Assembly (NCBI GenBank): GCA_030651695.1 | Contig: JAUSCD010000029.1 | Span: 434,001-498,000, forward strand | DNA length: 64,000 nt | Origin: Pseudohongiella sp. | GTDB taxonomy: Bacteria > Pseudomonadota > Gammaproteobacteria > Pseudomonadales > Pseudohongiellaceae | Direction of reading: 5' to 3' | In this document: positions 23,719 to 25,454 of the stretch, piece after piece | Layout: each line of letters opens with the position of its first letter | How positions within the stretch are numbered: the first letter of the stretch is position 1 | Program-made: the position numbers and the translations under genes | The notes under the pieces: model-generated | What the model saw: the letters and a program-made list of their open reading frames with translations, nothing else | The model's database searches: none | What the model was told of the DNA's origin: nothing

Positions 23719-24180
23719 TTACTTTGTGTCGGCTCTGGCTTCGAGCAAGCGGTTGCCCGTGCCAATCTGAATCTGGCGCGGCTTCATCGCTTCCGGAACT
23801 TCCCGGCGCAAATCAACATGCAGCAGCCCATTTTCCAGATGTGCGTTTACCACTTTGATATGGTCGGCCAGCTGAAACACACGCTCAAAGTTGCGCGCGG
23901 CAATACCCTGGTGCAGATACTGGCGCTCGGCGCTATCGTCAGCTTTTTCGCCACGTACCTTTAATGTCTGCTGCTCCGACTGAATCTTTAATTCGGCGTC
24001 AGTAAAACCGGCAACAGCCATAGTAATCCGATAGTCATCGTTACCAAGCCTTTCGATATTATATGGCGGATAACTGGGTTGAGTCTGCTCACGCTGAGCA
24101 ATGGAATCCAGCAACTGGCTCAGGTGGTCAAAACCGATAGTAGAACGGTACAGTGGTGCAAAATCAAAAGTTCTCATCAT
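23719..24180 (-). CDS. ibpA: Small heat-shock protein Hsp20 (IbpA-like)
   Basis: About 154 residues. ATP-independent holdase that binds unfolding proteins and hands them to DnaK/ClpB. The start MRTFDFAPLYRSTIGFDHL is nearly that of enterobacterial IbpA/IbpB, followed by the alpha-crystallin domain (PPYNIERLGNDDYRITMAVAGF to the GLLHVDLRREVPE segment). An upstream TTG would add six residues, but ATG 24180 (or the next ATG, 24177) is correctly placed after AGGA. The 5' region carries a sigma-32-like promoter and a ROSE-like hairpin, so both transcription and translation should respond to heat. It ends at a strong terminator. Confidence 0.93.
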   Translation of the reverse strand: MMRTFDFAPLYRSTIGFDHLSQLLDSIAQREQTQPSYPPYNIERLGNDDYRITMAVAGFTDAELKIQSEQQTLKVRGEKADDSAERQYLHQGIAARNFERVFQLADHIKVVNAHLENGLLHVDLRREVPEAMKPRQIQIGTGNRLLEARADTK

Positions 24181-24184
24181 CAAA

Positions 24185-24198
24185 TCCTCATCGAGCAA
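24185..24198 (-). promoter_or_regulatory. ROSE-like RNA thermometer core
   Basis: On the minus strand the leader reads TTGCTCGATGAGGA just before the ibpA start. The UUGCU motif (24198-24194) can pair with the Shine-Dalgarno AGGA (24188-24185) around a short loop with a G-G opposition, which is the signature of ROSE elements found before small heat-shock genes. Warming would free the ribosome site. Confidence 0.65.
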
Positions 24199-24288
24199 TA
24201 AGATTAAAACAAGTTTTTAAGTACGCCTATCTTGCAGATCAGGCATTCAGAACAGAGCCCATCAAGAGCCTCCATCCTGACATCTTTG

Positions 24289-24315
24289 ATAAGGTCAGCC
24301 CGGAAACTTTTCAAG
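24289..24315 (-). promoter_or_regulatory. Candidate sigma-32 heat-shock promoter of ibpA
   Basis: CTTGAAA (24315-24309), 14-nt spacer, CCTTATC-like -10 (24294-24289). The -35 matches the sigma-32 consensus; the -10 is partial. The predicted start near 24281 gives a leader of about 100 nt, as expected for a ROSE-controlled mRNA. Confidence 0.6.
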
Positions 24316-24378
24316 TCGGAAATTAAAAATATTTTAAAAAAACAGGCAGAGACCGGACGTGTGAACTATAAACATTGT

Positions 24379-24540
24379 GGGCGTCAGGACGACTGCCTTG
24401 TTCACGGATGACACACACCCATCTGAGGACAGAGCCCTGAAAGCTCAAGTCCTGCCAGGGAGGGCAGGCGCCGGGCTGTCACTGCTTCCTGCTGGCCCGG
24501 TGACTTTTTCCGGGGGCAGTTTCTGCCCCCGTTTTTTTTT
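24379..24540 (+). ncRNA. Candidate CsrB/RsmY/RsmZ-type regulatory RNA
   Basis: No protein gene on the plus strand lies between the hsp20 and SDR genes, yet a strong intrinsic terminator is present: CGGGGGCAG, TTT, CTGCCCCCG (24511-24531) and nine T (24532-24540). Upstream, four stem-loops in a row carry GGA in the loop: AGGAC (24386-24390), CGGA (24405-24408), AGGA (24426-24429, stem TCTG/CAGA) and AGGGAG (24457-24462, perfect 6-bp stem CCTGCC/GGCAGG). A fifth stem is CCGGGC/GCCCGG (24471-24500). A -10-like TATAAA is at 24367-24372, predicting a start near 24379 and an RNA of about 160 nt. Loop-exposed (A)GGA motifs are the binding sites of CsrA/RsmA, and this size and architecture match RsmY/RsmZ. 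A GacA upstream box was not found. Function is inference. Confidence 0.72.
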
Positions 24541-24668
24541 GCGCTGCCATAAGGCTGCAAACAATAGCCTGGCATCAGAGCGCTGCTTGCACGTTCGATA
24601 AACTTCGCTGATAGTGGGCTACGGATCTGATACGATCCGAAACTCATTCAGAATTTCCCGGATATTTT

Positions 24669-25454
24669 ATGACCAGAACAGTGTTGATCACCGGAGCCTC
24701 CTCAGGTTTTGGCAAAGCCTGCGCGGAACGTTTTGCCGCTGCAGGTGACCGTTTGATATTGCTTGCACGACGAAAAGAGCGGCTGGAGAAACTAGCCCAA
24801 CAGCTTGGGGAAAACTGCGAAACCACTTTGATCGCTGTAGATATCACAGATGCAACTGCTCTCGAAAAAGCCCTCAGTTCGCTCGCCCCGCCATTTGATC
24901 AGCCCGACATTCTGATCAACAACGCGGGTCTGGCGCTGGGCCTGCTACCCGCGCCCGAGTCTGATATACAGGACTGGGAAACCATGATCAGCACCAACAA
25001 TCTTGCGCTGGTGCGCATGACGCGTCTTATCCTGCCGGGTATGTCAGAGCGCAACCGCGGGCACATCATTAACATCGGATCGACTGCAGGCAACTGGCCT
25101 TACCCGGGTGGAAATGTTTACGGCGCCACCAAGGCCTTTGTGCAGCAGTTCAGCCGCGGACTAAGGTCAGATGTGCTGGGGAAAAAAATCAAGGTCACCA
25201 ATATTGAACCGGGCCTGGCAGAAACAGAGTTTTCTCTGGTGCGCTTTAAACATGACAAAGAGCAGGCTGGTAAAGTTTATGAAGGCACGCAACCTCTGAC
25301 TGCGCAAGATGTAGCGGATGCCGTATTCTGGGTTTGTGCTACACCTGCGCATGTCAACATCAATTCGATAGAGATGATGCCGCTCTGCCAGGCATGGGGA
25401 CCATTCAAAATCGATCGCACTATGGAATTTGATCAGGCATCAGAAATAGATTGA
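24669..25454 (+). CDS. SDR-family NADP-dependent 3-hydroxy acid dehydrogenase (YdfG-like)
   Basis: 261 residues. Rossmann motif TGASSGFGKA at about 7-16, NNAG near 88-91, and the catalytic Tyr/Lys pair YGATK at about 151-155, with Ser in NIGSTAGNW. The pattern and length match YdfG-type enzymes, which oxidise serine, L-allo-threonine and 3-hydroxy acids with NADP. Cytoplasmic. ATG follows a weak site (GGATATTTT). It lies downstream of the terminator of the candidate small RNA, so it should have its own promoter in 24541-24668. The gene after it is 67 bases away on the same strand. Confidence 0.87.
   Translation: MTRTVLITGASSGFGKACAERFAAAGDRLILLARRKERLEKLAQQLGENCETTLIAVDITDATALEKALSSLAPPFDQPDILINNAGLALGLLPAPESDIQDWETMISTNNLALVRMTRLILPGMSERNRGHIINIGSTAGNWPYPGGNVYGATKAFVQQFSRGLRSDVLGKKIKVTNIEPGLAETEFSLVRFKHDKEQAGKVYEGTQPLTAQDVADAVFWVCATPAHVNINSIEMMPLCQAWGPFKIDRTMEFDQASEID

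Follow-up and report, generated by a model that had tools for sequence, protein, structure and literature searches.

The window, a stretch of 64,000 nt from Pseudohongiella sp., most likely encodes a member of a candidate family of small RNAs with two CsrA-binding sites, more like McaS than like a many-site sponge. Our preferred reading, which we hold at a probability of about 0.7, is that of a new RNA family whose members act in trans and are transcribed independently, and in which the hairpins H1 and H3 would be clamped by a CsrA dimer and the GCUUCC of hairpin H4 would pair with mRNAs. The case for this reading is built from a conserved RNA with covarying stems, an invariant GGA and an invariant GCUUCC, two sites whose spacing stays constant where the RNA is compact, a terminator, and the occurrence of a CsrA gene throughout the genomes of the genus.

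Position, promoter, and neighbours of the RNA gene

The features of the locus are listed in Table 1. The 5' end of the RNA, placed from the −10 box, would lie at about 24374–24379, and the terminator at the other end has a stem of 9 bp with 8 G-C pairs, followed by 9 U. No open reading frame of at least 80 aa was found on the plus strand in the RNA stretch between hsp20 and the SDR gene. An earlier note on this DNA had proposed an unannotated small RNA with an intrinsic terminator in this interval, free of plus-strand genes, and the terminator, the list of open reading frames, and the conservation of the RNA all agree with it. A terminator-like hairpin also follows H4 in the relatives (by eye), with a short U-tract in G426.

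Table 1. Features of the small RNA locus, in window coordinates
Feature	Position	Strand	Description
hsp20	23719-24180	-	divergent neighbour of the RNA
Promoter-like site of the RNA	24343-24372	+	-35-like CAGGCA (24343-24348), 18-nt spacer, -10 TATAAA (24367-24372); by eye
Small RNA gene	24374-24540	+	about 162-166 nt; start placed a few nt past the -10 box, end at the U-tract
H1	24380-24397	+	putative CsrA-type site 1, loop AGGAC; GGCGUC-AGGAC-GACUGCC; stem covaries
H2	24405-24425	+	loop ACACACACC; minimum-energy fold; only in seven longer members
H3	24451-24468	+	putative CsrA-type site 2; CCUGCC-AGGGAG-GGCAGG; ANGGAX hexaloop, C-G closing pair
H4	24470-24501	+	changing stem; invariant GCUUCC (24484-24489) in upper loop
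Intrinsic terminator	24511-24540	+	stem 24511-24531, U-tract 24532-24540
Promoter-like site of the SDR gene	24587-24615	+	TTGCAC, 17 nt, GATAGT; by eye
SDR gene	24669-25454	+	downstream of the RNA

A generic promoter scan did not report the site upstream of the RNA (24343–24372). At the −10 place, CTATAA was found in all 14 genus members, for which it was a requirement of the extraction, with 0 failures. The −35 place mostly reads (T)GGCA in the genus, the exceptions being G008, G010, and G013, and TTGGC(A/G) stands there in 9 of the 11 RNAs from a second genus of the family. By eye, G010 has an inverted repeat of 12 nt (CTGTGCAAAATT / AATTTTGTGCAG; L077/L078) that extends over the −35 region, nearly the same repeat occurs in G008, and related AT-rich GCAAAATTTT stretches lie there in some other members; this repeat is a possible regulator site.

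The hsp20 gene adjoins the RNA in all 14 genus genomes with a contig covering that side. Its own minus-strand leader region (24168–24315) has, by eye, a heat-shock-type promoter (CTTGAAAA ... CCTTATCA) and ends in UUAUUGCUCGAUGAGGAUU, or in AUAUUGCUUGAUGAGGAUAU in several relatives. ROSE-type RNA thermometers set UUGCU opposite AGGA, and the hsp20 leader, with UUGCU facing AGGA, resembles them, with no Rfam match and a fold that is not decisive.

The RNA could also be read as a cis-acting leader or attenuator of the SDR gene, since the two lie on the same strand, the terminator stands about 130 nt ahead of the SDR start codon, and the SDR gene follows the RNA in 12 of the 15 genus genomes. We consider this highly improbable. 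No SDR gene was found at this locus in G008, G010, and G013, where the RNA is followed by a different gene (TetR-like by eye), and the association of the RNA with the SDR gene is therefore not obligatory. In the three second-genus genomes examined (G029, G414, and G420), the gene that the RNA faces is convergent and methylcitrate-synthase-like. The SDR gene of the window also has a promoter-like site of its own, which argues against the RNA being its leader. Such boxes with the same spacing were seen in L008–L011 (G003, G014, G012, and G007) and were not evident in the other loci.

Distribution of the RNA in two genera

Homologues were found in all 15 genomes of the same, Pseudohongiella-like genus (model R2, E ≤ 1.1e-7), ten further genus genomes having come from a nucleotide search of 56 relatives. 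Three covariance models were used, R1 and R2 for the H3–H4 core and R3 for H1, H3, and H4. In the second genus, 10 of 14 genomes carry the RNA, nine of them found with R3 and one (G426) added by local search, and no RNA was found in G018, G025, G034, and G432. The homologues differ enough among themselves to allow covariation to be counted. The RNA and hsp20 lie 1.7–2.4 kb apart in the seven second-genus genomes that have both on one contig (G029, G414, G420, G423, G426, G429, and G439); in six of these the RNA lies 5' of hsp20 and is oriented away from it, and in G414 it is on the 3' side. On the other side of the RNA, a prpD-like gene begins and runs away from it in G029 and G414 (by eye).

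A search with R3 over 390 genomes of the order gave no member outside the family: matches at E ≤ 0.01 occurred in eight genomes, six being the genus itself and two lying inside protein genes. The genome-wide model searches scored no more than 11–40 candidates per genome, so weak members can be missed. Stretches near hsp20 in other genera of the family (16, and one more) held nothing above 16.2 bits with the filters off. The RNA family is, as far as seen, restricted to two related genera of marine bacteria. Each genome of the Pseudohongiella-like genus has a single strong copy, and its place is conserved.

Folding and covariation of the hairpins

In unconstrained folds, the 14 genus RNAs formed 26 hairpin loops bearing GGA, compared to a mean of 1.6 and a maximum of 6 in 200 rounds of shuffling, while the 11 second-genus RNAs (from 10 genomes) formed 22, compared to a mean of 2.1 and a maximum of 6. 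Two GGA loops were folded in 12 of the 14 genus RNAs and in all 11 of the second genus; G005, which is cut by a contig end, was left out of these counts. The window RNA is one of the two genus RNAs with a single GGA loop, and its fold reaches −73.3 kcal/mol, compared to −59.7 kcal/mol for shuffles (z −2.9; 3 of 200 shuffles as good).

In the full-length window RNA, H1 is a minority state. It is the minimum-energy fold of the first 27 nt and of the first 55 nt, and it is lost once the next 18 nt are added; in the full-length molecule, longer-range pairing displaces it, and its GGA is looped in 1% of sampled structures. The full-length fold thus hides H1, and the window species may show only one site at equilibrium. 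Because H1 folds in the first 27 and 55 nt, yet has a probability of 0.01 in the complete molecule, it may be a transient or protein-stabilised hairpin in this species. Its loop probability is 0.82–1.00 in the other 13 full-length genus members. The second site, H3, is present in 96% of sampled structures of the window RNA and has a probability above 0.7 in the genus members, except in G008 (0.64) and G010 (0.21).

Between the two sites, where the earlier note drew its CGGA and AGGA loops, the relatives have either a hairpin with a UCACACAC-type loop or nothing. H2 has a CACACAC-type loop in the relatives, and it is missing from the 8 genus members of compact form and from all 11 RNAs of the second genus. 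Where it occurs (the window, G001, G002, G004, G005, G006, and G011), the CACAC-type loop is kept and the stem changes. One branch of the genus may have gained or kept H2 as an additional site for binding or pairing.

The earlier note had described four consecutive GGA hairpins. The first and last of these are H1 (AGGAC) and H3 (AGGGAG), which are conserved; the two between them, with CGGA and AGGA loops, had a probability of 0.00 and are not conserved. In the orthologous intergenic regions, a comparison that the note had named beforehand as its refuting test, the loops and stems of H1 and H3 are kept and the CGGA and AGGA hairpins are lost. H1 as drawn in the note agrees with how the first 27 and 55 nt fold and with the relatives, and not with the full-length window RNA.

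Covariation was counted on alignments made with MAFFT from sequence alone, one of 10 RNAs (A6) and one of 16 (A7), with the longer members outside both. A7 comprises 16 of the 19 compact RNAs, the omitted ones being two G435 copies (identical there to G417) and G439 (identical to G429). These 16 distinct sequences come from both genera, and among the 12 pairs of H1 and H3, 8 changed on both sides. The covariation score was 0.582, compared to 0.298 for shuffles, and none of 500 shuffles equalled the alignment in score, in its count of doubly changed pairs, or in percentage paired. The covariation signal was lost when the pairing partners were slid. In H1, 50 of 50 cells were paired in the 10 RNAs and 77 of 80 in the 16, and 4 of 5 stem pairs changed on both sides in the 10 RNAs. 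In A7, some pairs speak against the structure: pair 31-41 of H3, next to the closing pair, is mismatched in 8 of the 16 sequences, pair 26-46 fails in 4, and pair 27-45 in 2. For H1 and H3 in A6, the covariation score (0 of 500) and the cells paired were above shuffles, and the number of pairs changed on both sides was not (127 of 500 as good). A third alignment, A3, of 11 sequences, gave by itself an unconvincing structure count, with 47 of 500 shuffles as good. The structures scored on A3, A6, and A7 were named after viewing the folds of these same RNAs.

For the lower stem of H4, 4 of 8 pairs changed on both sides in an alignment of 15 (A4), counts that lean towards the structure because this alignment was fitted to the model; changes in the H4 stem were also seen by eye in the second genus.

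Two CsrA-type sites at a constant spacing

The GGA is invariant in the loops of H1 and H3, and the neighbouring letters vary. The H1 loops were AGGAC, ACGGAC, ACGGAU, AGGGAAY, AGGGAUC, ACAGGACAA, AAGGAAG, and ACGGAAG, and the H3 loops were ANGGA(A/G/C/U), with all four bases at N, apart from one AUUGGAG. According to the available part of Duss et al. (PMC4005645), an ANGGAX hexaloop on a stem is a high-affinity site of RsmE, and affinity is lower without the N. Both H1 and H3 present an A(N)GGA(X) loop on a stem, and H1 of six genus members, the window among them, lacks the N (AGGAC), which by the same partial source would be the lower-affinity form. The second-genus H3 is mostly CANGGAUG, which is close to the CsrA SELEX consensus RUACARGGAUGU as given in the available text of PMC7652899.

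All 18 compact RNAs measured by script have their two GGAs 22–25 nt apart. In G007, where the script found no H3, the spacing taken from fold positions is 23 nt, and the H3 loop probability is 0.98. One CsrA dimer bridges sites 10–63 nt apart, with an optimum above 18, in the available text of PMC7652899. The sites of the longer members with H2 are 61–74 nt apart (six measured), and two of these (72 and 74 nt) lie beyond the 63-nt bridging limit of that text, unless H2 draws the sites together.

A classical Csr/Rsm sponge, whose sole job would be the titration of CsrA, as in RsmY and RsmZ, with GCUUCC being structural, is possible but in our view doubtful. It would fit the presence of two A(N)GGA sites in almost all members, the intrinsic terminator, and the single CsrA gene, in a genome with no CsrB or RsmY model match over the cut-off. 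Yet each RNA has 2–5 GGAs in total and two conserved sites, compared to 9–25 GGA motifs in the Csr RNAs of the available part of PMC11882849. In the same part, CsrA binding by sRNAs that have only one or two GGAs is given a much lower affinity and efficiency, an argument against a pure sponge. An RNA with two sites would titrate CsrA poorly, the invariant GCUUCC would be unneeded, and no GacA box was found. The earlier note had proposed a four-site, Gac-linked sponge of CsrA/RsmA; its recognition part is supported by the invariant GGA, the covarying stems, and the CsrA gene present in all 15 genomes of the genus, and we regard the comparative evidence that CsrA/RsmA would recognise this RNA as strong, while the four sites and the Gac link are not supported.

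The invariant GCUUCC loop

The most conserved element of the RNA went unremarked in the earlier note, where H4 appeared as a "GC stem". GCUUCC was found in the H4 loop in 25 of 25 RNAs, and in the partial G005 copy. Its CUUCC letters are 61–100% unpaired in the 14 genus RNAs, and several folds from the second genus have UCC base-paired. The invariance, together with the unpaired CUUCC in the genus, would fit a seed for mRNA pairing. In the window, CAGGAAGC occurs 6 times, compared to 2.2 expected, with 3 of 100 shuffles having as many and one occurrence being the RNA's own antisense; this count is not informative.

GCUUCC might instead kiss a GGA loop of the same RNA, making a toggle in which CsrA binding and mRNA pairing are mutually exclusive. 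A GGA(A/G)G, with which CUUCC could pair, is seen by eye at H3 in most of the genus and at H1 in most of the second genus; however, G007 and G014 have no such loop, and the H3 of most second-genus RNAs is GGAU, a mismatch that weakens the kissing. Given UUCC, a purine beside an invariant GGA is common by chance, and the gap between H3 and H4 is 1–2 nt in most members, which is sterically hard. We therefore consider the toggle unlikely.

Csr and Gac components of the genomes

In the search for CsrA, which covered the Pseudohongiella-like genus, one match was found in each of the 15 genomes. The CsrA of the window genome keeps Arg44 and Leu4, the latter being a position with a known role. No Rfam 15 family (4227 families) matched over its gathering score in the whole window, and 19 loci, 17 of them carrying the RNA, had 0 matches at gathering scores. 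Within 24180–24680 there were 11 weak matches, the highest at 18.2 bits against a cut-off of 48. In the window's own genome, the best CsrB (RF00018) match was 14.1 bits against 71 and the best RsmY (RF00195) match 24.5 bits against 57, both elsewhere than the RNA; the RsmY-like match L034 was rejected as merely a terminator-like stretch (by eye). The covariance models of RsmZ and RsmX had no match over the gathering score in the window or the 19 loci. The proposed membership in the CsrB/RsmY/RsmZ families is not borne out by these searches, and the suggestion of a possibly undescribed RNA agrees with them.

The GacA box is TGTAAG-N6-CTTACA. The best matches upstream of the RNA in 25 regions had 3–5 mismatches out of 12, which is no better than shuffled sequence, and the earlier note had already remarked on the absence of a clear box. 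Among 10 UvrY-like matches, the two best scored 196 and 180 bits (identities of 43% and 37%), compared to an NCBIfam cut-off of 280 and to 451 for E. coli UvrY, and no response-regulator gene (gacA) was found directly beside uvrC. These proteins are below the cut-off for a GacA/UvrY orthologue, and the genome could have a diverged orthologue. With no GacA box above shuffled sequence and GacA-like proteins below the cut-off, the view of a Gac-linked CsrB/RsmY/RsmZ sponge is only partly supported. If the RNA controls CsrA, its switch is probably something other than a Gac-type signal, because there is no GacA box, the UvrY-like proteins are below the cut-off, and no gacA lies by uvrC.

Repeats and rejected candidates

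Weak model matches outside the two genera were inspected in part, leaving out, for example, L051, L054–L062, L230, and L231. Twelve were rejected as members (L045–L047, L052, L066, L188, L189, L192, L193, L195, L201, and L227), being parts of long inverted repeats with ANGGAN hairpins, a verdict reached by eye with nine loci folded. We also rejected L252 and L253, which lie within dnaG-like and proB-like reading frames, and L226 and L191, which look like coding sequence (by eye). The repeats of L046, L047, L052, L066, L188, L192, L193, L201, and L227 (at about position 1500) are dispersed, intergenic, and found in several genera of the order. Each is a long inverted repeat that folds at −65 to −104 kcal/mol, mostly with two ANGGAN-loop hairpins on top, and they look like mobile or repeated CsrA-type decoys.

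That repeats with similar ANGGAN hairpins are dispersed in this order leaves room for the RNA itself being merely a structured element, of DNA or RNA, that regulates nothing, such as a repeat, a mobile-element end, or a long terminator. Against this, the element has a single strong copy per genus genome, a conserved place, and its own promoter-like site; no flanking inverted repeat of at least 12 nt was found around it except an AT palindrome, and the covariation keeps the loop letters. An element with no role is very unlikely in our judgement.

Similar elements in two genera were seen at L064 1500–1560 (G000:C22, in the window's own genome) and L190 1500–1560 (G435:C20). By eye, part of the H4 loop has its complement on their other strand, over 13 nt in the window genome and 8 nt in G435, a terminator-like hairpin follows, and toxin-antitoxin-like genes lie alongside. 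They may be chance matches or a partner RNA; we estimate that about one such chance match is expected, because the model search spanned hundreds of megabases.

Discussion

The closest functional precedent is McaS of Escherichia coli, which in the available parts of PMC10729762 and PMC7652899 has two CsrA-bound GGA sites (of four GGAs) together with mRNA-pairing regions, and whose mRNA pairing is enhanced by CsrA (PMC10729762, in part). Like McaS, the new RNA is short and has two CsrA-type GGA sites; unlike in McaS, these are in two dedicated hairpins, and mRNA pairing is only predicted. The two RNAs are likened by design, and no Rfam family matches the new RNA. With RsmY, RsmZ, RsmX, CsrB, and CsrC, the new RNA shares A(N)GGA loops on stems, an intergenic gene, and an intrinsic terminator, but it has two conserved sites and not many (about five or more), no model match over the cut-off, no GacA box, and an extra invariant loop without GGA.

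Other families are more distant. The terminator-proximal hairpin and pyrimidine-rich stretch recall the mmgR/suhB and anti-hemB sRNAs, whose models scored 17.8 bits (cut-off 41) and 18.0 bits (cut-off 49.5), respectively, the likeness being mainly the terminator. TwoAYGGAY RNA (RF01731) is named for two AYGGAY motifs and has two hairpins with such loops. Both it and the new RNA have two hairpins with GGA loops, but the new RNA is not matched by its model, which gave no match at E ≤ 10 in 24180–24680 and none at E ≤ 1 in five relatives. The TwoAYGGAY model does match the dispersed repeats, below its cut-off of 43, at 39, 32, and 31 bits (L066 once and L047 twice); these long inverted repeats, in another genome of the order, have an architecture unlike that of the new RNA.

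In our preferred reading, the A(N)GGA loops of H1 and H3 would be clamped by one CsrA dimer, and the GCUUCC of H4 would pair with GGAAGC-like mRNA sequences, probably near ribosome binding sites. Accumulated RNA would then withdraw some CsrA from weak mRNA targets, and/or the RNA and CsrA would act jointly on the paired mRNAs, as McaS does. Transcription, CsrA binding, the clamping of each RNA by one dimer, and the role of GCUUCC are what we infer from these comparisons.

The usual marks of a Csr RNA are numerous GGA repeats and control through GacA/UvrY. Searches on these criteria would miss the family, because it has two conserved sites and no visible Gac link. Our literature search gave no paper pairing Pseudohongiella with CsrA, and only community surveys, judged by title, pairing it with small RNA; the RNA would be the first candidate Csr RNA for Pseudohongiella-type bacteria. 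A more specific idea, which we offer tentatively and do not favour, is that of a minimal CsrA-guided sRNA, in which the 22–25 nt spacing docks the dimer and GCUUCC steers the unit to GGAAGC-like ribosome binding sites. If this were true, CsrA would be a cofactor of the sRNA and not merely titrated by it, and a single dimer would set the architecture of a Csr RNA, in bacteria that lack a recognisable GacA. The family offers a small, well-defined RNA for testing whether dimer-clamped hairpins alter the effect of an sRNA on its mRNA targets.
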